From a bacterium (GTDB lineage Bacteria; JACRDZ01; JAQUKH01), in contig JAQUKH010000020.1 of assembly GCA_028719205.1 (NCBI GenBank), positions 1 to 49,187 of the forward strand: a DNA stretch of 49,187 bases, read 5' to 3'. A program made the position numbers and the translations under genes. The stretch's first letter is position 1. Each line of letters opens with the position of its first letter. This document shows positions 6,740-18,538 of the stretch, piece after piece. The notes beneath the pieces were generated by a model. That model saw nothing but the letters and a program-made list of their open reading frames with translations, was not told the DNA's origin and ran no database searches.

Positions 6740-6762
6740 AACCAGAGAATGTATCTCTGGTT
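6740..6762 (-). terminator. Terminator of the kdp riboswitch expression platform
   Basis: A 9-bp stem (AACCAGAGA paired with TCTCTGGTT) with a five-base loop is followed on the minus strand by an AU-rich tract (ATTTTATTT). It lies between the riboswitch aptamer and the first kdp open frame. Ligand-bound ydaO riboswitches favour termination, so c-di-AMP would repress kdp. Confidence 0.85.
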
Positions 6763-6773
6763 ACATCTCTATT

Positions 6774-6930
6774 ATACCTACGAGGTTAGCTGTCGGGCTA
6801 AGGTTGAGAACCTTTATCCACCTAAGCTGGATTTGTCCATCTCAGGCGAATATGCGCCCCAAGGATCTTTCGATCGAATCTGGGTCCCCCGTTTTCTTCA
6901 TTATTAAGAATAAAGAAGAAACTCGGCTTT
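6774..6930 (-). ncRNA. c-di-AMP (ydaO/yuaA-type) riboswitch upstream of kdp
   Basis: Minus-strand sequence contains the conserved ydaO blocks in the right order: GCCGAG at the 5' side, ACGGGGGACCCA, then TTGGGG, and at the 3' side AGCCCGACAGCTAACCTCG followed by GTAGGT. The 5' GCC and 3' GGT can close P1. A terminator follows. Potassium uptake genes are established targets of c-di-AMP riboswitches, and cytosolic K+ raises c-di-AMP in studied bacteria, so the placement fits. Boundaries are approximate. A 7-bp hairpin (TGGAGTA / TACTCCA, 6946-6962) lies just upstream, close to the likely transcript start. Confidence 0.92.
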
Positions 6931-6974
6931 TAAAAAAATTCATTTTGGAGTAGTATACTCCAGTATTTATATAT

Positions 6975-7006
6975 ATACAAGTATAAAATCCCATTTTCAG
7001 GTAACC
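6975..7006 (-). promoter_or_regulatory. kdp promoter of the GGTTACC-N16-TACTTGTAT class
   Basis: On the minus strand GGTTACC (7000-7006) is followed after exactly 16 bases by TACTTGTAT. The same two blocks with the same spacing occur before amt and before the barrel-protein gene. There is no good sigma-70 -35 box at the right distance. I infer an alternative-sigma promoter, with transcription starting about 40 bases before the riboswitch. The rest of the 428-base gap between the kdp sORF and the next gene holds the riboswitch, its terminator and the plus-strand promoter at 7103-7131. Confidence 0.7.
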
Positions 7007-10094: not shown

Positions 10095-10436
10095 TTACCC
10101 GATTGCCTCCGGACCTCGTTCATCAGTACGGATACGCACACATTCGTTTAGATCAAGAACAAATATTTTACCGTCACCTGTTTCGCCCGTTTTGGAGCCT
10201 TTGCTGATAGCTTTTATTGTCTTCTCGACAAAATTATCGTTAACAGCGATCTCTAAACGAATTTTTCTTAACAGGTTACCCGTTTCTCTCGCGCTGCGGT
10301 AAACCTCGGTTACACCTTTCTGACGGCCATGCCCTAATACCTCGCTTACCGTGATAAGATTTATGTCGGACTTATATAGTTCTTCTTTTACTTCTTCTAA
10401 TTTATATGGTTGAATTATTGCTATAATTAATTTCAT
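10095..10436 (-). CDS. glnK: Canonical PII nitrogen regulatory protein (GlnK/GlnB)
   Basis: Trimeric signalling protein that senses ATP/ADP and 2-oxoglutarate and usually docks on Amt to block ammonium import. The start at MKLIIAIIQPYKL is chosen because AAAAAGGAG precedes it; an upstream extension would add nine poorly fitting residues. It is 113 residues long. The T-loop keeps the modifiable Tyr (GVTEVYRSARE), the B-loop reads TGETGDGKIF and the C-loop RIRTDERG. It follows amt on the same strand with 95 bases between, the classic amt-glnK pair. Its leader carries the two-hairpin element at 10454-10530. Confidence 0.96.
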   Translation of the reverse strand: MKLIIAIIQPYKLEEVKEELYKSDINLITVSEVLGHGRQKGVTEVYRSARETGNLLRKIRLEIAVNDNFVEKTIKAISKGSKTGETGDGKIFVLDLNECVRIRTDERGPEAIG

Positions 10437-10453
10437 TGTTTTCTCCTTTTTCA

Positions 10454-10530
10454 ATGAGCACATTACTTATGGAACACGAAGTGTGAACAGAAGTAATAGT
10501 GCGAATTGAACCCCGATGAACATCGGGGTC
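10454..10530 (-). repeat. Two-hairpin leader element, copy at glnK
   Basis: Read on the minus strand: hairpin 1 ACCCCGATG / CATCGGGGT (10510-10529), linker TCAATTC, then an extended hairpin closed by GCAC / GTGC (10458-10502) with inner ATTACTT / AAGTAAT pairing, then CTCATT and the ribosome binding site of glnK. The same framework occurs before the APC-PII gene with a different but still paired inner stem, and in a shorter form before amt. Confidence 0.75.
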
Positions 10531-10531
10531 T

Positions 10532-11761
10532 TCATTCCAATATTGTATACGCCCTCTCATGATGCTGGGTAAGATCCAGCCCCATAAGTTCTTCTTTTTC
10601 GGTAACACGCATACCGATCATTAAATCCACAACTTTATAAATAATCACAGTTAATATAACAGAATATACTATTGTAGCCAGAACAGTAACCGCCTGAACC
10701 ATAAACTGTTTAGGATTCCCGAAAAATAAACCGTCCGCACCGGCTGGATTTACCGCCTTTGAGGCAAATAATCCGGTAGCCAACGCGCCCCATATGCCTC
10801 CCATACAATGCACTCCAAAAACATCCAGCGAATCGTCGTATTTCAAAGCTGGTTTTATAACACTTACGGCAAAAAAACATATAACGCTGACAAACATTCC
10901 TATAACAATCGCTGACATTACACTGACAAATCCCGCAGCCGGAGTGATGGCAACCAAACCCGCCACAATACCACTCACCGTCCCAAAAATTGTAGGTTTA
11001 CCGTTTTTCAACCATTCAATAATTGCCCAGGTCAGCCCCGCGGCAGCCGCTGAAGTATTAGTAACTACAAAAGCGTTAACCGCCAATCCATTCGCGGCAA
11101 GGGCGCTACCCGCATTAAAACCGAACCAGCCAAACCATAATAAACCGGTCCCTAAAACGATAAAAGGCAAATTATGCGGAGTTGGCGTGCTGTGTTCGAT
11201 ATTTTTCCGTCTGCCGATCAAAATTGCTGTAACTAAAGCGGCAACACCCGCGCTTATATGAACAACTGTTCCTCCGGCAAAATCAAGCGCGCCCATATTT
11301 TTAAACCATCCGCCGACTCCCCATACCCAATGGCAAACGGGATTATAAACAAGGGTCGCCCACAAAATTGTAAATAACAAAAATGCTGAAAATTTCATCC
11401 TCTCGGCAAAAGCACCGATGATCAAGGCAGGCGTAATTATGGCAAACATTCCCTGATATATCATGAATGCCTGGTGAGGAATAGTCGCGGCATAATCCGC
11501 ATAAGGTTCAAAACCCACCCCGTTCAAACCAAGCCACTGAAGGCCACCAATAAATCCATTTCCAGGAGCAAATGATAAACTGTAACCGTATACGACCCAT
11601 TCAATGCTTATTACGCATAGAATTATAAAACATTGCATTAAAATACCTAATATATTTTTTCTTCTAACCATTCCGCCATAGAAAAATGCCAGTGCCGGGG
11701 TCATTAGCATTACTAATGCCGCTGAAAACAAAACGAAAGCTGTGTCACCTGAATTTATCAT
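10532..11761 (-). CDS. amt: Ammonium transporter Amt
   Basis: Trimeric membrane channel for ammonium. It is 409 residues with about 11 membrane segments. Family landmarks are FFYGGMVRRKN near the N-terminus, DFAGGTVVHISAG with the first pore His and the conserved Asp, and DVFGVHCMGGIWG with the second pore His. No long signal peptide is present, and the C-terminal tail is cytoplasmic as needed for PII docking. glnK follows. The leader is complex: an alternative promoter, tandem ANTAR-type hairpins, an intrinsic terminator and the two-hairpin element precede the ATG, so transcription elongation and possibly translation are regulated. Confidence 0.97.
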   Translation of the reverse strand: MINSGDTAFVLFSAALVMLMTPALAFFYGGMVRRKNILGILMQCFIILCVISIEWVVYGYSLSFAPGNGFIGGLQWLGLNGVGFEPYADYAATIPHQAFMIYQGMFAIITPALIIGAFAERMKFSAFLLFTILWATLVYNPVCHWVWGVGGWFKNMGALDFAGGTVVHISAGVAALVTAILIGRRKNIEHSTPTPHNLPFIVLGTGLLWFGWFGFNAGSALAANGLAVNAFVVTNTSAAAAGLTWAIIEWLKNGKPTIFGTVSGIVAGLVAITPAAGFVSVMSAIVIGMFVSVICFFAVSVIKPALKYDDSLDVFGVHCMGGIWGALATGLFASKAVNPAGADGLFFGNPKQFMVQAVTVLATIVYSVILTVIIYKVVDLMIGMRVTEKEELMGLDLTQHHERAYTILE

Positions 11762-11772
11762 TTTATCCTCTC

Positions 11773-11826
11773 AAATGAGTCCCGATAACAATCGGGACGA
11801 GTTTGACCCCGATTTTACATCGGGGC
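11773..11826 (-). repeat. Two-hairpin leader element, copy at amt
   Basis: On the minus strand, hairpin CCCCGAT / ATCGGGG (11807-11825) is followed by the linker TCAAACTC, hairpin GTCCCGAT / ATCGGGAC (11779-11798) and then CTCATTTGAGAGG, which includes the amt ribosome binding site. Order and flanks match the copies at glnK and the APC-PII gene. Confidence 0.7.
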
Positions 11827-11897
11827 ATGTTTTAGTTTATACTTTGCCTTCTTTGATAACTTACTCATTTATATATACAACTGTATAAATACAAGGC

Positions 11898-11945
11898 AAA
11901 AAAAAGACGCGCATAAAAGACATAATTGTCTTTGATGAACGCCTC
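11898..11945 (-). terminator. Regulated intrinsic terminator in the amt leader
   Basis: The minus-strand stem starts AGGCGTTCATC and returns with GATGCGCGTCT-like pairing (15 of 17 positions paired) around the inner stem AAAGAC / GTCTTT, followed by eight Us. Its 5' arm contains GTTCAT, which is also the 3' arm of the upstream hairpin P2, so the two folds exclude each other. Confidence 0.85.
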
Positions 11946-11985
11946 TGTTCATTGCTTATATTTTATTCAGCACTGCATTGTGCCT
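11935..11985 (-). promoter_or_regulatory. Tandem ANTAR-type hairpins in the amt leader
   Basis: P1 (about 11969-11985) is GGCAC[AATGCA]GTGCT. P2 (11935-11952) is ATGAAC[AGAGGC]GTTCAT. Both loops have six bases with A at 1 and G at 4, the established recognition pattern for ANTAR antiterminator proteins. P2 overlaps the 5' arm of the terminator that follows. Ammonium and nitrogen genes are known ANTAR targets. Confidence 0.82.
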
Positions 11986-12015
11986 GATTATTTGATTAAA
12001 CAATTGTATTATTAA

Positions 12016-12049
12016 TAATACAAGTAAAATATTACCTATTTTGGTAACC
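12016..12049 (-). promoter_or_regulatory. amt promoter of the GGTTACC-N16-TACTTGTAT class
   Basis: GGTTACC (12043-12049) and TACTTGTAT (12016-12024 region) are 16 bases apart on the minus strand, identical to the kdp and barrel-protein promoters. The first ANTAR-type hairpin begins about 30 bases downstream. Confidence 0.7.
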
Positions 12050-12058
12050 TAATAGTTT

Positions 12059-12397
12059 TTACAAAGCTTTTTCGCCTTTTTCGCCTGTTCTGATCCTTAT
12101 GGCATTTTCAATATTGTGTATAAATATTTTCCCGTCTCCAATTTCACCTGTTTTTAAATTATCAATTATTGTATTAACAATCGCTTCCACATCCTTATTG
12201 TTAACAACAAGTTCCAGTTTTGTTTTAGACATAAGTTCCACGCTAGAATCTTCACCTTGCCGCTTACAGGTTACACCTTTCTGCCTGCCATATCCTTCTA
12301 TCTCTGTAATCGTTATACCCAAGTAACCGACTGTTTCTAAAACCTTAAACACTATATCGAGTTTTTCAGGCCGAATTATCACCTCTATTTTTTTCAT
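12059..12397 (-). CDS. PII-family protein with divergent T-loop
   Basis: This 112-residue PII homologue keeps the nucleotide-binding parts: GYGRQKGVT before the T-loop, TGEIGDGKIF (B-loop) and RIRTGEKG (C-loop). The T-loop reads GVTCKRQGEDSSVELMSK and lacks the Tyr used for uridylylation, so partner choice and covalent control should differ from glnK. GAGG lies upstream of the ATG. It sits between amt and a small HTH gene; the amt promoter lies in its 3' flank. Its partner could be amt, the APC permease or an enzyme; the sequence does not say. Confidence 0.92.
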   Translation of the reverse strand: MKKIEVIIRPEKLDIVFKVLETVGYLGITITEIEGYGRQKGVTCKRQGEDSSVELMSKTKLELVVNNKDVEAIVNTIIDNLKTGEIGDGKIFIHNIENAIRIRTGEKGEKAL

Positions 12398-12453
12398 TTT
12401 TTATTACCTCAATTATTTAATTAAACAAATGAATAAACGAAAGGCAAAAAAAA

Positions 12454-12633
12454 TTAATCTATTTCCAATTTTGTTTTTACCAGATTCGCGTAAACTTTAT
12501 TGATGCGATTAGTCTTTAACCATCTTTCGATTGTAGCGATCTGCACATCAAGGATCTTAGACAGATCATAAAGCGTGTATTTCTTGACCTCTTTTATCCT
12601 GATTATTTTTTCAATTAATTCTTTATCTATCAT
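12454..12633 (-). CDS. 59-residue helix-turn-helix protein
   Basis: The frame opens at an ATG preceded by AGGA with six-base spacing and encodes 59 residues. The core (about residues 18-45) reads YTLYDLSKILDVQIATIERW, a plain helix-turn-helix of the kind seen in MerR/Xre-like or excisionase-like DNA-binding proteins. There is no other domain. It is flanked by two PII genes on the same strand, 56 bases before the next PII gene, so it is likely co-transcribed with them and may regulate the island. I cannot assign a family more exactly. Confidence 0.75.
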   Translation of the reverse strand: MIDKELIEKIIRIKEVKKYTLYDLSKILDVQIATIERWLKTNRINKVYANLVKTKLEID

Positions 12634-12648
12634 GTTATTTCCTAAAAT

Positions 12649-12680
12649 TGGTAGGGGAGGGTTTCAACCCCGCCCCTACA
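12649..12680. repeat. Short TGTAGGGG-type palindromic element, copy 3
   Basis: GGTAGGGG at one end, CCCCTACA at the other, with an inner GGGTTTCAACCC palindrome. It separates the PII gene at 12689 from the HTH gene. Confidence 0.65.
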
Positions 12681-12688
12681 TTAATAAT

Positions 12689-13027
12689 TTACAATGCTTT
12701 TTCACCTTTTTCTCTGGTGCGTATCCTTACTACATCTTCAACAGGATATATAAATATTTTACCATCTCCTATTTTTCCTGTAAAAGCGGCTTCACATATA
12801 GCGTTAATAATCTTATCCAAATCCTCATCTTTTGTCACGATCTCGATCTTTGCCTTGTTGATCAATTCCATTTTATATGTTTTACCGCGTAATTTCTGTT
12901 CCAGGCCTTTCTGTTTCCCGTGCCCTTCAACCTCGCTGATCATCAAACCCGGGTGGCCGACTTTCTCTAAAATAGAAATTACGTCGCCGACTTTCGAAGG
13001 CCGGATCACTGCTTCTATTTTTTTCAT
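12689..13027 (-). CDS. PII-family protein with divergent T-loop
   Basis: A second 112-residue PII homologue in the cluster. It keeps GHGKQKGL, TGKIGDGKIF and RIRTREKG for nucleotide binding. The T-loop region GLEQKLRGKTYKMELINK is highly basic and differs from both glnK and the PII at 12059; its only Tyr is not in the canonical context. AAAGGA precedes the ATG. The gene lies 74 bases after the APC-PII fusion gene and may be read from the same transcript. Confidence 0.92.
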   Translation of the reverse strand: MKKIEAVIRPSKVGDVISILEKVGHPGLMISEVEGHGKQKGLEQKLRGKTYKMELINKAKIEIVTKDEDLDKIINAICEAAFTGKIGDGKIFIYPVEDVVRIRTREKGEKAL

Positions 13028-13042
13028 TTTATATTCCTTTCA

Positions 13043-13088
13043 TTGGGCGGGTTTACCTGCCCGCCGCAGGCAGGAAACCCGCCCTTAC
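13043..13088. repeat. GGGCGGGT palindromic element, copy 4
   Basis: A nested palindrome: outer arms GGGCGGGTTT and AAACCCGCCC, inner arms CCTGCC and GGCAGG. It ends CCCTTACA rather than CCCCTACA, so it is a diverged relative of the other copies. It lies between the APC-PII gene and the following PII gene. Confidence 0.65.
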
Positions 13089-13101
13089 AGATTATATTAA
13101 T

Positions 13102-14970
13102 TTATATTGCCTTTACTCCCATCTCTCCTGTACGTATACGCATGACTTCCGACGCGTCGGTCACAAATATTTTACCATCCCCAATATTCCCCGTACGGGC
13201 CGCTTCGCTTATAATATCCATAATTTTAGGTACATCCCACTCTTTGACAACAACATCTATCCTTATTTTTGGAAGGAAATTTATTGTATCACTGCCAGGA
13301 TCTCCATCAGCTTTACCTTTTTGCCGTCCGAAACCTTTTACCTTAGTTACTGTCATTCCCATAATAAAATCTTCCTCTTTAAGAACTTCAACAACAAGGT
13401 TAAGATAATCCGGCCGGATCATACACGACACCATTTTTAAACGGTTTGTTTTACGAACGGTGGTTACCGCTACATAAAGAACAGTTATTAACGCCCATGC
13501 GCCGGCAATAACAAAACAGATCTGCGCTTCCGCCTTTGAATCAGCATTACCAATAGAATACAAATAAATTATCGCGGCAAGCATAATAACGTTTGTTATA
13601 ACTCCCAATACCGGAACAATAACATGTTTTACAACACTGAAATCCTTTCTATCTTTGAACGCTACGATAGTCCAGATACATGTCAAACCATAAAGAACAA
13701 ACGTTCCGAAATTTGATGCAAGTGTAATACCAACTAAACCGACTACCGACCGGATACCAACGGCCGCGATTATCGACGTGGCTATTATCAATACAGCCAG
13801 TGTCATGTAAGGAACACCTGTCTCCGCGTGCAAAAAAGAGAAGTCTTTCGGCAGTTCCCGGTCATCAGCCATACCCGCAGTTACCCGTATGGCGGTATTC
13901 ATACAACTCAAGGTCGTACCTATTATCGCGATTGCTACAGTAAGTGCCATGGTGATCATCAAGCCGAATCCGATCCCGTTAAAGAGAGAATTACCAAGGA
14001 TCTTTGTAAGGTCTCCGATCGGCGCACTTGACGCCGCAGCCGCCGCCATACCGGTCAGTGTGGTCCCGTTAACTAAAACTGTTAACTTTTCATTAACCAT
14101 ATATCCCGCAGCTAAATACTCCAGTAGATAAGCAAACAATCCCTGGATCACAAGAGAAAGTATAATCGCTTTCGGTAATGTATTCTGCGGGTTTTCGGTT
14201 TCTGATGCTAAAGCAGTACAGCTCTCAAAACCAACAAGGATCAAAATCGCGATTGTGGACTGGATAAGCACACCGTTAAACGAATGCGGTTTAATTACAT
14301 CAATCGCGCCCGAAAAGGACCATTGAGCTGCAACCTGTGGATTTGAAATTCGATACCATATGGCCAATCCGCTGAAAATAACTAACGCGGCCCATTGGAT
14401 AATATTGATCCAAAGCGCTGTAGTTGTTGAACCGGTTATTCCGCGATATGCAATGTATCCTGTTACAGCTGAAAATATGATACAAAATAATGTAAGGGTC
14501 GATACTGATAAAGCTGCTCCGGTAAACTGTGTATAAATATACCCGACAAGAGTCGCCATCATCGCCACCATAACCCCCGGATATACCCAATAGAAAAGAT
14601 GCGCCGACCAGCCTGTAACGATCTTTGCGATACGGGCAATTGATTTAGGCCCGCTTTCTTTTTCTTTACGGCTGTCCAAAAAAGCCCTTTCGGCAAAATA
14701 GACACAGCTTGCAAAACCCGCTTCGGGATAAATTCTCGCGAGTTCCGCGTACGCGAGAGCAGTCAGCATCGCGACTATCAAGGCAAGTACAATACCGGCC
14801 CAGATATCACTCGCGACCGATGCCCCGTTTGGAGCCGTGGCCGCTGCCTGCAGCTGGAAAGTGATCCATAAAAACGCCCCGGGCGCTATTAAAGCCATCG
14901 CGTTCACCGTAGCACCTAACAATCCCAGTTTAGGTTTTACTGTTTTTGTTGTAATTTCATTGTTTGACAT
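13102..14970 (-). CDS. APC-family amino acid permease fused to a C-terminal PII domain
   Basis: A 622-residue fusion. Residues 1 to about 505 form an APC-superfamily permease with about 12 membrane helices, including the helix-1 region LGLLGATVNAMALIAPGAF and the segment LVGFESCTALASETENPQNTLPKAI typical of amino acid/polyamine transporters. Residues from about 512 form a complete PII domain: KMVSCMIRPDYLN, GFGRQKG, TGNIGDGKIF and RIRTGEMG. The T-loop (KADGDPGSDTINFLPK) lacks the canonical Tyr. The frame is continuous, so this is not a sequencing join. A covalent PII could gate the permease with 2-oxoglutarate and adenylate state. The substrate is unknown. GGAGG precedes the ATG, and a two-hairpin element lies before it. 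Confidence 0.95.
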   Translation of the reverse strand: MSNNEITTKTVKPKLGLLGATVNAMALIAPGAFLWITFQLQAAATAPNGASVASDIWAGIVLALIVAMLTALAYAELARIYPEAGFASCVYFAERAFLDSRKEKESGPKSIARIAKIVTGWSAHLFYWVYPGVMVAMMATLVGYIYTQFTGAALSVSTLTLFCIIFSAVTGYIAYRGITGSTTTALWINIIQWAALVIFSGLAIWYRISNPQVAAQWSFSGAIDVIKPHSFNGVLIQSTIAILILVGFESCTALASETENPQNTLPKAIILSLVIQGLFAYLLEYLAAGYMVNEKLTVLVNGTTLTGMAAAAASSAPIGDLTKILGNSLFNGIGFGLMITMALTVAIAIIGTTLSCMNTAIRVTAGMADDRELPKDFSFLHAETGVPYMTLAVLIIATSIIAAVGIRSVVGLVGITLASNFGTFVLYGLTCIWTIVAFKDRKDFSVVKHVIVPVLGVITNVIMLAAIIYLYSIGNADSKAEAQICFVIAGAWALITVLYVAVTTVRKTNRLKMVSCMIRPDYLNLVVEVLKEEDFIMGMTVTKVKGFGRQKGKADGDPGSDTINFLPKIRIDVVVKEWDVPKIMDIISEAARTGNIGDGKIFVTDASEVMRIRTGEMGVKAI

Positions 14971-14987
14971 AAGAATTCCTCCTTTTT

Positions 14988-15056
14988 AATGAGCACATCG
15001 TCCCGATGTCCTTCGGGATGATAGTGCGAATTGAACCCCGATGCAACATCGGGGTC
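14988..15056 (-). repeat. Two-hairpin leader element, copy at the APC-PII gene
   Basis: On the minus strand, hairpin ACCCCGATG / CATCGGGGT (15035-15055) is followed by TTCAATTC and a second hairpin closed by GCAC / GTGC (14993-15027) whose inner stem is TCCCGA / TCGGGA. CTCATT and the GGAGG site follow. Compared with the glnK copy the closing pairs and flanks are identical, while the inner stem has changed on both sides and still pairs. Confidence 0.75.
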
Positions 15057-15108
15057 TAATTCAGTCTACAATTCAGCTTCGCTTTTAACTTGCTAAATTA
15101 TGACTTCA

Positions 15109-15816
15109 TTAGAAGTTAATATCTAATTGTGTTGTTACCGTATTATTTACAGTTATCTTATCATTGTTATAAATGGTATAAGCAAAAATGATACTTGTAT
15201 TTGGAGCAAAAAGATAAGAAAAACCCAAACTTGTTGAGCCGTAAAAACTTTTGCCGGACGCATAATCAACTGCAGCCCACACTTTGTCTGAAATTGCTTT
15301 ATCCCATGTAGCGATTAATCCGGTATTTGCCTTGTCGCCAATTTCATCTACCAACAATTTTTTATTTCCGATATAATAACCAAGTGAAATCCTCCCGATA
15401 GGATTAAATGTTTTAGCAACTACTCCGTAAATAATATTGTAATCAGTCACATCTTTTTTTGTGCCGGCATTACATAACCCAAATGCTATAGCCGGAATAA
15501 CCTCTTTTTCAGAAAACCCATATTTTGCATTAAATTGTACCGGATTTTCAGAAGGCTCAAAAAAATCAATACCCACTTCTAAATTTTTAACCAGCCCATA
15601 AGTTAACCCGACATCTGTAGGAAATGCAACCGGATGATCTTTGTTATCTTTTACCGAGAAATAATTATCGATACCCAAATGCCATGTTTTTACAGCCTGT
15701 ATATCCGTTGAAGGATTCCATATCTGGGTTGAAGGTGTAGCGTGAGCAAAATTCATAACACAGAAATTAAACGCAAAAACCAGAACAAACAATTTTATCA
15801 TTTTAAACTTTTTCAT
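15109..15816 (-). CDS. Outer-membrane beta-barrel protein of the nitrogen island
   Basis: A 235-residue exported protein. The start MKKFKMIKLF is chosen because AAAAGGAG lies just before it; a longer frame uses a TTG inside the terminator region. A signal peptide (about residues 1-26, ending AHA) is followed by alternating strands such as VGLTYGLVKNLEVGIDFF and YNIIYGVVAKTF, and the protein ends in Phe, as barrel proteins do. It resembles small putative channels or porins of unknown substrate. It lies 138 bases before the APC-PII gene on the same strand; with its nitrogen-type leader it may let nitrogen compounds through the outer membrane. The substrate is inference only. Confidence 0.78.
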   Translation of the reverse strand: MKKFKMIKLFVLVFAFNFCVMNFAHATPSTQIWNPSTDIQAVKTWHLGIDNYFSVKDNKDHPVAFPTDVGLTYGLVKNLEVGIDFFEPSENPVQFNAKYGFSEKEVIPAIAFGLCNAGTKKDVTDYNIIYGVVAKTFNPIGRISLGYYIGNKKLLVDEIGDKANTGLIATWDKAISDKVWAAVDYASGKSFYGSTSLGFSYLFAPNTSIIFAYTIYNNDKITVNNTVTTQLDINF

Positions 15817-15837
15817 TTTTCTCCTTTTTGACGCCAA

Positions 15838-15885
15838 ATAAAAAAGGCGCTCATTTTATCCATCCTGGATTAAAATAACGCCTTT
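15838..15885 (-). terminator. Regulated intrinsic terminator before the barrel-protein gene
   Basis: A long stem with two single-base bulges joins AAAGGCG...ATCC to GGAT...CGCCTTT around the loop AGGAT, followed by TTTTTTATTT. It lies wholly in the leader, so it attenuates rather than ends a gene. The 5' arm overlaps the downstream ANTAR-type hairpin. Confidence 0.85.
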
Positions 15886-15908
15886 GTAGTTTTTACACTT
15901 CTATGTGT
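15871..15908 (-). promoter_or_regulatory. Tandem ANTAR-type hairpins in the barrel-protein leader
   Basis: P1 (15895-15908) is ACAC[ATAGAA]GTGT. P2 has the loop AAAGGC (15880-15885) closed by CA / TG, with a 2x2 internal loop and further AAAA / TTTT pairs, so it is weaker. Both loops have A1 and G4. P2 overlaps the terminator. Confidence 0.68.
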
Positions 15909-15914
15909 TTCTAA

Positions 15915-15948
15915 TTATACAAGTAATAATTTGATAAGATTGGTAACC
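15915..15948 (-). promoter_or_regulatory. Barrel-protein promoter of the GGTTACC-N16-TACTTGTAT class
   Basis: GGTTACC (15942-15948) and TACTTGTAT (15917-15925) stand 16 bases apart on the minus strand. The GGTTACC block overlaps the sigma-factor 3' flank. The first leader hairpin starts about ten bases downstream, consistent with a start near 15910. Confidence 0.7.
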
Positions 15949-15956
15949 GGAAGTAC

Positions 15957-16475
15957 TTATTTCCAAACATACTTCCCGCATTTCCCTCTGATCTTATTTG
16001 TTATTTTTATTACGGCAACATGGGATATGTCCAATTTATCGCCTATTTCCCTTGTTGTTAAACCTCTAGCTATTAAGTTTAATACATCCTTTTCACGCTT
16101 ATCAAAACTTTTCATTAAATTTTCTACTATGATCTTGTTGTTTAGATTATCCAGATCATTTTCTGAATGTTTGTCTCTCAGGGATAATATTTCCTTCGAT
16201 GATGTATTTTCATCATCAAGCAAAGCCTCAATACTTACAAATTTCATGTCGGTATTTACCCTGCGGAGATAATTTTTAAGATAGAAATAACAACCTTGCA
16301 GGATATAGCTGTCTGTTTTGTTTTCTAATTTTCCTTCCTGATATTCCAGCCAGAGATGCAGTAATGATTCCTGAAGCAGGTCATCATCATTAAAGAACGT
16401 AAAATGCCCGTTCAATTTATATGTGATATTTTTTAATGTCGGAGATATTCTTTCTACAATAGTATCAAAATTCAT
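15957..16475 (-). CDS. ECF-like RNA polymerase sigma factor
   Basis: A 172-residue protein with the two-domain sigma-70 layout. Region 2 (about residues 10-75) includes NDDDLLQESLLHLWLEY, the core-binding DLxQE pattern; region 4 (about 118-168) reads KREKDVLNLIARGLTTREIG followed by a recognition helix DISHVAVIKITNKIRG. No anti-sigma gene is adjacent. The start MNFDTIVERIS is chosen because GGAGG lies just upstream; a longer frame would run through the terminator hairpin. The gene has a sigma-70 promoter, a long leader with ANTAR-type hairpins and two terminators. It sits directly upstream of the barrel-protein gene, whose GGTTACC promoter is a candidate target. Confidence 0.85.
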   Translation of the reverse strand: MNFDTIVERISPTLKNITYKLNGHFTFFNDDDLLQESLLHLWLEYQEGKLENKTDSYILQGCYFYLKNYLRRVNTDMKFVSIEALLDDENTSSKEILSLRDKHSENDLDNLNNKIIVENLMKSFDKREKDVLNLIARGLTTREIGDKLDISHVAVIKITNKIRGKCGKYVWK

Positions 16476-16484
16476 TTTTCCTCC

Positions 16485-16533
16485 AAAAAAAATGGCGTTC
16501 CTTAAATCCATCACCGGATAAAAGGAACGCCAT
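16485..16533 (-). terminator. Second regulated terminator in the sigma-factor leader
   Basis: An 18-position stem (16 paired) from ATGGCGTTCC to GGAACGCCAT with loop GGTGAT on the minus strand, followed by eight Us and, at once, by the GGAGG ribosome binding site. The 5' arm overlaps the hairpin GGAAC[TATGGC]GTTCC (16524-16539), whose loop has G4 but T instead of A at position 1. Confidence 0.88.
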
Positions 16534-16539
16534 AGTTCC

Positions 16540-16579
16540 AAAAAAAAATGCCTTCCCGCGGTTCTGCCCGTGAGAAGAC
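16540..16579 (-). terminator. First regulated terminator in the sigma-factor leader
   Basis: On the minus strand GTCTTCTCACGG pairs with CCGCGGGAAGGC (one mismatch, some G-U pairs) around the loop GCAGAA, followed by nine Us. The 5' arm GTCTT is also the 3' arm of the upstream ANTAR-type hairpin at 16575-16590. Confidence 0.85.
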
Positions 16580-16609
16580 ATCAATGTCTTTTTAATACTT
16601 CTTTGTATT
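16575..16609 (-). promoter_or_regulatory. Tandem ANTAR-type hairpins in the sigma-factor leader
   Basis: P1 (16594-16609) is AATAC[AAAGAA]GTATT and P2 (16575-16590) is AAGAC[ATTGAT]GTCTT. Both loops have six bases with A1 and G4. They start at the likely transcription start, three bases separate them, and P2 shares five bases with the terminator that follows. This is the cleanest copy in the window. Confidence 0.87.
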
Positions 16610-16618
16610 TATGACATT

Positions 16619-16646
16619 ATTATAACACAAAATTTATTTATGTCAA
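16619..16646 (-). promoter_or_regulatory. Sigma-70 promoter of the sigma-factor gene
   Basis: On the minus strand TTGACA (16641-16646), a 16-base spacer and a perfect TATAAT (16619-16624). Transcription would begin just before the first ANTAR-type hairpin. Confidence 0.88.
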
Positions 16647-16691
16647 TAATATTATTTAATAAAATCATATCAATTTAATTCATACAACTTT

Positions 16692-16726
16692 AAAAAAAGC
16701 GCCCCGATTTCAATCGGAGCGCTTTT
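16692..16726. terminator. Intrinsic terminator downstream of the glutamate synthase gene
   Basis: AGCGCcCCGATT pairs with AATCGGaGCGCT, flanked by A7 on one side and T5 on the other, so it can work on both strands. On the minus strand it lies 27 bases after the glutamate synthase stop codon. Confidence 0.9.
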
Positions 16727-16752
16727 TGCCCTAATATTGCTGCAAATTAAAA

Positions 16753-18345
16753 CTACTTACCGTCAATTATTTTTTCTGCTTCTTTGCGGTAATTATCCAT
16801 TACATAAGGTATTCCTGATATTTTAGTAGCTTCTTCAGTTAAACTCATAACGTCTTTTCTTGAGATGGTTGACAAATTAAAATTACGGGACCCGGCCATT
16901 AATTGCTGTAACCCGACTTTAATTCTCTGGGAAAAGGTATAAATTCCAACCGCGCCTAATGGAATGTCCTTCATATCCTTGCCATATTTTTCAGCGAGTT
17001 CTTCATAACAAACAAATATTTCCTCCGGTTTGGCACCAAATTCTGATACTGCGTTTGGTAAATTGTTGGTCTTAATCCAATGATCGATATTTTTACCTAC
17101 AAAACCCGGTATCATCAATGCCCTTCCCATACAAACCGCCTTAACATACGGGGCACCCATGGCAATTACCTTAAATACATGATCTTCTAATGAAAAACCG
17201 CCGGCAATCGCGATATCAGGAACACGCATTTTTTTCTTAGTTAGTTTCTGACAAAATTCATACGCGAGAGATTGCAAATAGAATGTAGGTATACCCCATT
17301 CCTGCATCATTCTCCATGGTGACATCCCTGTTCCGCCAGGCGCGCCGTCAATTGTCAAAAGGTCTATCTTTGCCTCTGAACAGTATCTGATAGCCTGCGC
17401 TAATTCCACCATAGAATACGCGCCTGTTTTTAGAGTGATCCTTTCAAATCCTAAACCGCGCAAACGTTTAATTTCCTTCATAAAACCTTCTTGCGAAACA
17501 AAACCAAGACGGGAATGCCTTTCAAATTCTTTTATTGCTCCCGCTTTATACGCCTGATGAACTGCATTGTCTGTAGGATCAGGTGTCACTATATAACCGC
17601 GTTTTTTTAATTCTATAGCCCTGTCCAGTGATTTAACTTTTATTTCTCCTCCGATACACTTTGCTCCCTGTCCCCATTTTAATTCTATAGTATTTAATTT
17701 ATGTTTTTTTATTACATATTCAGCCACCCCTAAACGAGTATCTTCAACATTCATCTGAACTAATATTTCACCATAACCTTCGTGAAATCTTTTGTAAAGC
17801 GCGATACGCCTATCCATTTCAGGCGAATTTGTAATTTTACCTTTGCTGTCCAATTCCAGTTTTGGGTCAATACCGCAAACATTTTCACCGCACACAAGCG
17901 TTACACCGGATATTGCCGCGCCTATAGAAAAATGTTCCCAATTTTTACGGGCAATTTCCGTGGATCCCAGCGCGCCGGTAAAAATTGGAGCCTTCATTTT
18001 TACTTTTTTTGTCCATCCATATTCTGTTTCTGTATTTACCGCGGGAAAAATCGCTGTGTCCGGATTACCGTCAATACCCTTTGGTAAACCTTTCGCTCCC
18101 TGCGCGTAGCCCTGGATATTCAAATGTGAATAATCTACAGGATAATTTTTGTCGCCGCCCGCTGTTATTTCACCAAATGGGCCGGGATAAATTACTTCTC
18201 TGCCTCTAAATGATGATTTAAAAACTTCACAATTACCGCGACAGGATTCAAGACATCTCGAACACAAACCCGAGCATGGAACCACATTTTTTGAGCGGTT
18301 TGATGTTCTGGTTGCATCATTACCACCAGGGCTTCGTAAATTCAT
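16753..18345 (-). CDS. GltB-type FMN-binding glutamate synthase family protein
   Basis: A 530-residue stand-alone version of the glutamate synthase central (FMN) domain, which makes glutamate from 2-oxoglutarate and glutamine-derived ammonia. The barrel shows KAPIFTGALGS, GENVCG, EILVQMN, ELKWGQGAKCIGGE, KTGAYSMVELAQAI, TIDGAPGGTGMSPW and IAIAGGF. A Cys-rich N-terminus (CSGLCSRCLESCRGNC, about residues 20-35) is typical of the archaeal-type short forms. No glutaminase domain or small GltD subunit is adjacent. The start follows AGGAG with nine-base spacing. Its leader has a sigma-70 promoter and two ANTAR-type hairpins, tying it to the nitrogen regulon. The exact reaction of short forms is uncertain. 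Confidence 0.88.
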   Translation of the reverse strand: MNLRSPGGNDATRTSNRSKNVVPCSGLCSRCLESCRGNCEVFKSSFRGREVIYPGPFGEITAGGDKNYPVDYSHLNIQGYAQGAKGLPKGIDGNPDTAIFPAVNTETEYGWTKKVKMKAPIFTGALGSTEIARKNWEHFSIGAAISGVTLVCGENVCGIDPKLELDSKGKITNSPEMDRRIALYKRFHEGYGEILVQMNVEDTRLGVAEYVIKKHKLNTIELKWGQGAKCIGGEIKVKSLDRAIELKKRGYIVTPDPTDNAVHQAYKAGAIKEFERHSRLGFVSQEGFMKEIKRLRGLGFERITLKTGAYSMVELAQAIRYCSEAKIDLLTIDGAPGGTGMSPWRMMQEWGIPTFYLQSLAYEFCQKLTKKKMRVPDIAIAGGFSLEDHVFKVIAMGAPYVKAVCMGRALMIPGFVGKNIDHWIKTNNLPNAVSEFGAKPEEIFVCYEELAEKYGKDMKDIPLGAVGIYTFSQRIKVGLQQLMAGSRNFNLSTISRKDVMSLTEEATKISGIPYVMDNYRKEAEKIIDGK

Positions 18346-18409
18346 GAAATTAAATCTCCTTTCATAATAATTATGCACATATTGCCTATTTTTTAGGCAT
18401 ACTCAAAGC

Positions 18410-18488
18410 AAAAAAAAACCTGCTTCACCATTTTCTGGACGCCATTGTCCACTTATTCGGTAAAATTACCTTGCGCCATTGCAAGATA
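18410..18488 (-). promoter_or_regulatory. Tandem ANTAR-type hairpins in the glutamate synthase leader
   Basis: P1 (18467-18488) has an 8-bp stem (TATCTTGC with GCAAGGTA, one G-U) and loop AATGGC. P2 (18436-18451) is TGGAC[AATGGC]GTCCA. The two loops are identical and have A1 and G4. A run of nine Us follows at 18418-18410, but I cannot draw a strong stem directly before it, so the terminator is unproven. A small GCCTA / TAGGC hairpin lies further on (18384-18399). Confidence 0.78.
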
Positions 18489-18510
18489 CGGGTTTTCTTA
18501 ATAAAAGAAA

Positions 18511-18538
18511 ATGATAATACAAAATAAACTTTTGTCAA
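18511..18538 (-). promoter_or_regulatory. Sigma-70 promoter of the glutamate synthase gene
   Basis: TTGACA (18533-18538), a 16-base spacer and TATCAT (18511-18516) on the minus strand, about 20 bases before the first ANTAR-type hairpin. Confidence 0.75.

Follow-up and report, generated by a model that had tools for sequence, protein, structure and literature searches.

Positions 10095 to 18538 of contig JAQUKH010000020.1 (assembly GCA_028719205.1, the 2.59 Mb genome of an uncultured bacterium of lineage JACRDZ01) hold a dense group of nitrogen genes, which raises the question of whether their promoters, leader RNAs and regulators form a single circuit. The contig stretch analysed, 49,187 nucleotides in all, is referred to here as the window; the region in question lies on its minus strand throughout. 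An original prediction described amt, glnK, two further PII genes, a permease-PII fusion, a barrel protein, a sigma factor and a glutamate synthase gene as clustered here, and proposed that an ANTAR protein and the sigma factor control them in layers. The clustering was confirmed by Pfam and NCBIfam matches together with structural models. The observation itself is confirmed and its interpretation partly supported. Our reading is that these genes very probably belong to a nitrogen regulon with two locks in series, a sigma-specific start and ANTAR antitermination, which the sequence arranges as a coherent feed-forward circuit with AND logic.

The sigma factor and its candidate promoter

The putative sigma factor comprises 172 residues and passes the cut-off of TIGR02937 (sigma70-ECF; 49.6 bits against 42.9) over residues 3 to 168, a span that includes both domains. 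Its predicted structure consists of two helical domains joined by a flexible linker, and the top Foldseek matches are all sigma factors. Judged by a family match over the full length and by this model, the protein is a true sigma factor, as had been proposed, and of the ECF type. A phage origin was rejected, phage records giving no match, as was a role in replacing sigma54, which is encoded in the same genome.

The amt, barrel and kdp genes had been assigned a common promoter. To assess this, the whole genome was searched for GGTTACC-N14..18-TACTTG, with the reversed pattern as a control. The pattern occurs three times, always within the window and on the minus strand (7006, 12049 and 15948), and the reversed control not once; the shared promoter therefore stands. 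Exactly 16 bases separate GGTTACC from TACTTGTA at all three sites. Allowing one mismatch yielded a fourth site, AGTTACC at C51:4460, which precedes a class I glutamine amidotransferase gene. The sigma gene and glt have strong sigma70-type promoters in this genome. Spacer positions on which the pattern made no demand are also conserved, with A following GGTTACC (93%) and T preceding TACTTGTA (91%).

A survey covered 237 Omnitrophota genomes; its counts are lower bounds, because the genomes are drafts and promoter variants exist. Of these genomes, 67 carry the sigma gene and 177 have ANTAR, while the exact promoter is present in 42, at 62 sites against 2 for the reversed control. Sigma gene and promoter occur together in 38 genomes, the sigma gene alone in 29, the promoter alone in four and neither in 166 (Fisher p 3e-21), and 41 of the 62 sites lie within 10 kb of a sigma gene. 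Co-occurrence and proximity suggest that this sigma factor recognises the promoter. It could instead be supposed that the regulon is controlled by ANTAR alone, the leaders being real, GGTTACC an ordinary activator site and the sigma-like protein engaged in some other job. The best Pfam match of the protein, a LuxR-type helix-turn-helix, would suit that explanation, as would the recognition of sigma70 region 2 in two of 14 homologues and the existence of sigma-bearing genomes without the exact promoter; the association between the two, their proximity and the ECF cut-off argue against it, and the rigid distance of 16 bases in every exact site is what one would expect of a -35/-10 pair recognised by a single protein. 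We regard the explanation as unlikely.

ANTAR-type leaders and their terminators

ANTAR-type hairpins had been claimed for four leaders. Those of glt (the gene for the glutamate-synthase-domain protein), sigma and amt each contain two hairpins, P1 and P2, of at least 5 base pairs with A..G.. hexaloops and a closing C-G pair. In a sequence as long as the window, chance would supply 1.8 such pairs, and these three are all found in nitrogen-gene leaders. For the barrel gene the claim holds in part, P1 having 4 base pairs but P2 just 2 and being weak. The linker between the hairpins measures 15 nucleotides in glt, 16 in amt and 3 in sigma (about 5 to 20 in relatives), lengths that fall within the known range of 2 to 25 (PMC8164766). 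Terminators had likewise been described in all four leaders; a strong one (-14 to -18 kcal/mol) overlaps the 3' part of P2 in the sigma, amt and barrel leaders, and none was found in that of glt. By their loops, linkers and terminator overlap, the leaders are predicted ANTAR target RNAs, glt being without a clear terminator and barrel having a short P2.

A covariance model trained on leaders from other genomes only produced four matches in this genome: the barrel (37.4 bits), amt (33.6 bits) and sigma (22.4 bits) leaders and that of the C51 amidotransferase gene. All but the sigma match coincide with promoter sites. The model is tuned to leaders of the sigma type and gives that of glt a low score, so that other glt-type leaders in this genome may be missed. 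A known riboswitch was rejected as an account of the nitrogen leaders, none of which matched Rfam above the gathering score; the Rfam matches in the window are a c-di-AMP riboswitch before kdp and one tRNA.

Coupling of promoter and leader

Fourteen sigma-bearing genomes supplied 31 promoter sites. A C[A..G..]G hairpin of at least 4 base pairs follows within 110 bases at 26 of them (dinucleotide shuffles predict 0.6), and a strict hairpin pair at 18 (0.0 expected); upstream, a hairpin was found at 0 of the 31. Held-out sites, found later and unused before, behaved similarly, with a hairpin at 22 of 28 (0.5 expected) and a pair at 12 (0.01 expected). The reciprocal test started from 30 leaders chosen by the RNA model only; for 23 of them, the 70 bases upstream contain the promoter with no more than three mismatches. 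At most sites of the barrel/porin type, P1 begins about 7 to 13 bases after TACTTGTA and would lie near the transcript's 5' end; at others (amt, glnA) it begins farther downstream.

The leader type is present in 48 of the 67 sigma-bearing genomes against six of the other 170, and in 54 of the 177 genomes with ANTAR against none of the 60 without. ANTAR accompanies sigma in 65 of 67 genomes and is encoded within 6 kb of it in at least 19. ANTAR appears to be the more widespread system, to which the sigma factor has commonly been added. The conservation of P1 bears on a further alternative, a sigma regulon whose leader hairpins are ordinary attenuators or terminators without ANTAR involvement. 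P2, frequently short, shares sequence with the terminator, which could therefore explain part of the conservation; P1, however, lies outside the terminator, and 100% of sequences can nevertheless form its stem, compensatory change being seen in both alignments, whilst its loop keeps A1 and G4. Together with the absence of the leader type from every genome lacking ANTAR, this makes the alternative very improbable.

The genes found behind the promoter in various genomes include amt, two types of glnA, PII, permease-PII, porins, hcp (hybrid cluster protein), glutamine amidotransferase and nifH-nifI1-nifI2-nifD. The nif cluster was seen behind the same promoter and leader in the sister species (L014, 15256-20000), as was nifH of an Omnitrophota genome (L150).

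Predicted control of the sigma gene, and the ANTAR protein

Hexaloop hairpins were found in 13 of 19 intergenic regions before nadE or the sigma gene (0.65 expected), often with a sigma70-type promoter in front and with terminators as well. In held-out genomes, the RNA model also matched the leader of one sigma gene (L150). In these sequences, the sigma gene usually bears an ANTAR-type leader behind a sigma70-like promoter. In the nadE-sigma gaps of five loci (L020, L021, L023, L024 and L026), the second hairpin often has the sequence GGAC[....]GCCC, in which an A.C mismatch adjoins the closing C-G pair. In one genome (G286, L077), the promoter stands in front of a GAF protein resembling the ANTAR protein, a possible positive loop.

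The ANTAR protein had been expected elsewhere in the genome, and one ANTAR gene was found, encoding a GAF-ANTAR protein of 240 residues (G000:C3); the original prediction thus passed the check on which it would have fallen had no such gene existed. Several Omnitrophota genomes encode an orthologue, with about 55 to 60% identity, immediately upstream of nadE and the sigma gene. A more distant genome (L015/L029) has a single cluster of gltB, gltD, GAF-GAF-ANTAR, nadE, sigma, porin, amt, glnK and glnA. The locus is present in both L018, labelled Planctomycetales, and L029, labelled Clostridia; these organism labels look doubtful given the content. RNA binding and antitermination are the presumed functions of the GAF-ANTAR protein.

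A proposed circuit

The following sequence of events would account for the arrangement. The GAF-ANTAR protein would bind the paired hexaloop hairpins in nascent leaders and block the overlapping terminator. Its first target would be the sigma gene, and probably also glt, both transcribed from ordinary sigma70-type promoters; antitermination in the leader of the sigma gene would determine how much sigma factor is made. The ECF-type sigma factor would next initiate at GGTTACC-N16-TACTTGTA. Because the target transcripts open with ANTAR hairpins, the same ANTAR protein would be required a second time. Leaders on both the sigma gene and its targets imply a feed-forward wiring, with ANTAR acting on sigma, and ANTAR and sigma acting on the targets; this wiring, part of the original prediction, is supported by its conservation in other genomes. 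The nitrogen targets would be amt-glnK, the barrel, permease-PII and PII genes and the C51 glutamine amidotransferase gene, with nif, glnA and hcp added in relatives. Low nitrogen as the trigger, and the direction of the response, are presumed.

Several observations weigh against the double-locked regulon. Its support consists of sequence and conservation, that is, of parts, positions and co-occurrence. The exact promoter is absent from 29 of the 67 sigma-bearing genomes, which is partly explained by variants such as AGTTACC. The ANTAR gene of this genome does not adjoin the sigma gene, and the terminator search gave no strong terminator in the glt leader. The base-pairing evidence is modest, because the stems have few pairs and a large part of P2 does not vary; fewer than half of the sequences form the fourth pair of P2. 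Another view takes the elements for an annotation artefact or for palindromes and AT-rich, promoter-like words that came together in a nitrogen cluster by chance. It could claim that sigma70-like sites are no more numerous in the region than in shuffles and that the two-hairpin part proved a general repeat, yet for promoter and leaders it is refuted by the shuffle, upstream, reversed-pattern and held-out controls, and we give it practically no weight.

Potassium uptake

The original prediction also drew kdp into the circuit. Its promoter is present, but an ANTAR element is absent and a c-di-AMP riboswitch stands in its place. In the sister species, the promoter (one mismatch) precedes trkA-trkH (L106), again without an ANTAR element. 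Such promoters, which lack the ANTAR leader, would require the sigma factor alone and would couple potassium uptake to it. As a conserved target kdp was rejected, KdpA being encoded in three of 13 related genomes; in G100 and G104 the promoter sites are on different contigs than kdpA. A link between nitrogen and potassium is plausible from these sequences because two species have two different potassium systems behind the promoter, and it is retained as tentative.

A two-hairpin repeat

A further two-hairpin element had been described before three of the nitrogen genes. Two copies are clear, before glnK and permease-PII, and the one before amt is degenerate. The element is composed of CCCCGATG..CATCGGGG followed by TTCGCACTAT...ATGTGCTCAT and immediately precedes the ribosome-binding site in many genes. 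The pattern TTCGNACTAT-N14..44-GTNCTCAT has six copies in this genome and nine in the sister genome (G001); beyond the window, the repeat occurs on C1, C6, C17 and C29 of G000 and at nine places in G001. It often directly precedes the start codon of rplT, tsf, rpsD, frr, mlaD, lpxI or an oxidoreductase gene. Its interpretation as a nitrogen element was rejected, as copies precede many housekeeping genes. The repeat may be an RNA element of its own; several of its carriers are translation genes (rplT, tsf, rpsD and frr).

Genes and features of the locus

In order of transcription, the region comprises the glutamate-synthase-domain gene, sigma, barrel, permease-PII, PII, a small helix-turn-helix gene, PII, amt, glnK and a terminator. 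Pfam and NCBIfam confirmed four PII domains, Amt (TIGR00836, 483 bits), the glutamate synthase domain and the permease-PII fusion. Homologues of the fusion about 70% identical to it are present in L020 and L021. The model of the barrel protein shows a signal peptide and 12 strands in a shape near that of KdgM/NanC-type porins, and its homologue in the sister species is 88% identical. The helix-turn-helix protein, of about 60 residues (LSKILDVQIATIERWLKT), recurs inside or behind GGTTACC promoters in several genomes (here and in L109 and L045).

Table 1 Coordinates of genes and of observed or predicted control elements in the window
Feature	Position	Strand	Remark
c-di-AMP riboswitch (ydaO/yuaA)	6760..6938	-	between promoter and kdp; RF00379, 62.7 bits
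Predicted sigma-type promoter upstream of kdp	6976..7006	-	GGTTACC-N16-TACTTGTA; no ANTAR leader after it
glnK (PII)	10095..10436	-	start taken as the ATG behind AAAGGAG
Two-hairpin repeat before glnK	10454..10528	-	genus-wide
amt, ammonium transporter	10532..11761	-	TIGR00836
amt leader terminator hairpin	11906..11943	-	-14.3 kcal/mol, then 8 U; overlaps P2
amt putative ANTAR element	11935..11984	-	P1 GGCAC[AATGCA]GTGCT, P2 ATGAAC[AGAGGC]GTTCAT
Predicted sigma-type promoter of amt-glnK	12019..12049	-	
PII protein a	12059..12397	-	PF00543
Small helix-turn-helix protein	12455..12631	-	similar protein in the same cluster of sister species L109
PII protein b	12689..13027	-	PF00543
Amino-acid permease-PII fusion	13102..14970	-	PF00324 and PF00543
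Two-hairpin repeat before permease-PII	14989..15054	-	genus-wide
Outer-membrane 12-strand barrel, porin-like	15109..15816	-	predicted structure
Barrel leader terminator	15846..15882	-	-14.4 kcal/mol, then 6 U
Barrel putative ANTAR element	15874..15909	-	P1 ACAC[ATAGAA]GTGT, P2 AC[AAAGGC]GT
Predicted sigma-type promoter of barrel gene	15918..15948	-	probably also serves the permease-PII-to-PII genes behind
ECF-type sigma factor	15957..16475	-	TIGR02937
Sigma leader, second terminator	16493..16531	-	-25.1 kcal/mol; third hairpin (P3) GGAAC[TATGGC]GTTCC overlaps its 5' arm
Sigma leader, first terminator	16549..16579	-	-17.9 kcal/mol
Sigma putative ANTAR element	16574..16609	-	P1 AATAC[AAAGAA]GTATT, P2 AAGAC[ATTGAT]GTCTT
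Sigma70-type promoter of sigma gene	16619..16646	-	TTGACA-16-TATAAT, 12/12
Glutamate-synthase-domain protein (glt)	16753..18345	-	PF01645
glt putative ANTAR element	18436..18488	-	P1 TATCTTGC[AATGGC]GCAAGGTA, P2 TGGAC[AATGGC]GTCCA
Sigma70-type promoter of glt	18511..18538	-	TTGACA-16-TATCAT

Relation to known systems and implications

How does this circuit compare with those already described? A nitrogen-fixation cascade of Geobacter, GnfK/GnfR, is said to place an ANTAR-type antiterminator on nif and glnK/amtB, which are reportedly also under other transcription control; it is said to involve a phosphorylated response regulator and sigma54-type control. In contrast to that cascade as so described, the present system has a GAF-ANTAR protein and an ECF-type sigma factor, with sigma54 also encoded in the genome. 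With other ECF sigma factors (TIGR02937), the window protein shares its two-domain organisation and, in its candidate promoter, -35/-10 boxes at fixed spacing. Unlike them, it has no anti-sigma partner gene that we noticed adjoining its own, and its level seems to be set by leader antitermination.

ANTAR control of nitrogen genes is itself established (Ramesh et al. 2012; PMC3369931). Its regulons share with the present one two A1/G4 hexaloop hairpins, the second overlapping a terminator, and target PII, amt, glutamate synthase and nitrogenase genes, similar to those here. In the parts seen, no dedicated sigma factor was found, whereas here the sigma gene itself is an apparent target and the promoters are fused to the leaders. 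The sensor here is a GAF domain, and PMC3369931 states that no characterised GAF-ANTAR example existed. In the literature searched, mostly without subscription papers, we found no ECF sigma factor joined to an ANTAR regulon and no description of a GGTTACC/TACTTGTA promoter. We therefore think it fairly likely, with less assurance than for the circuit itself, that Omnitrophota and the lineage of the window possess an undescribed class of nitrogen control, in which one GAF-ANTAR antiterminator governs both an ECF sigma gene and its target promoters, so that one sensor gates start and readthrough in series, with potassium uptake as a sigma-only branch.

Nitrogen control in Omnitrophota, a large and uncultured phylum, is apparently undescribed in the literature searched. 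The finding offers a concrete circuit whose promoter, RNA element, sigma factor and sensor can be named, together with a list of targets (amt, glnA, PII, porins, hcp and nif). It would set an ANTAR protein above a sigma factor, and would give GAF-ANTAR proteins, which are widespread and hardly studied, a predicted set of targets. Since promoter and leader are compact and portable, the double lock could be rebuilt and tested in E. coli.

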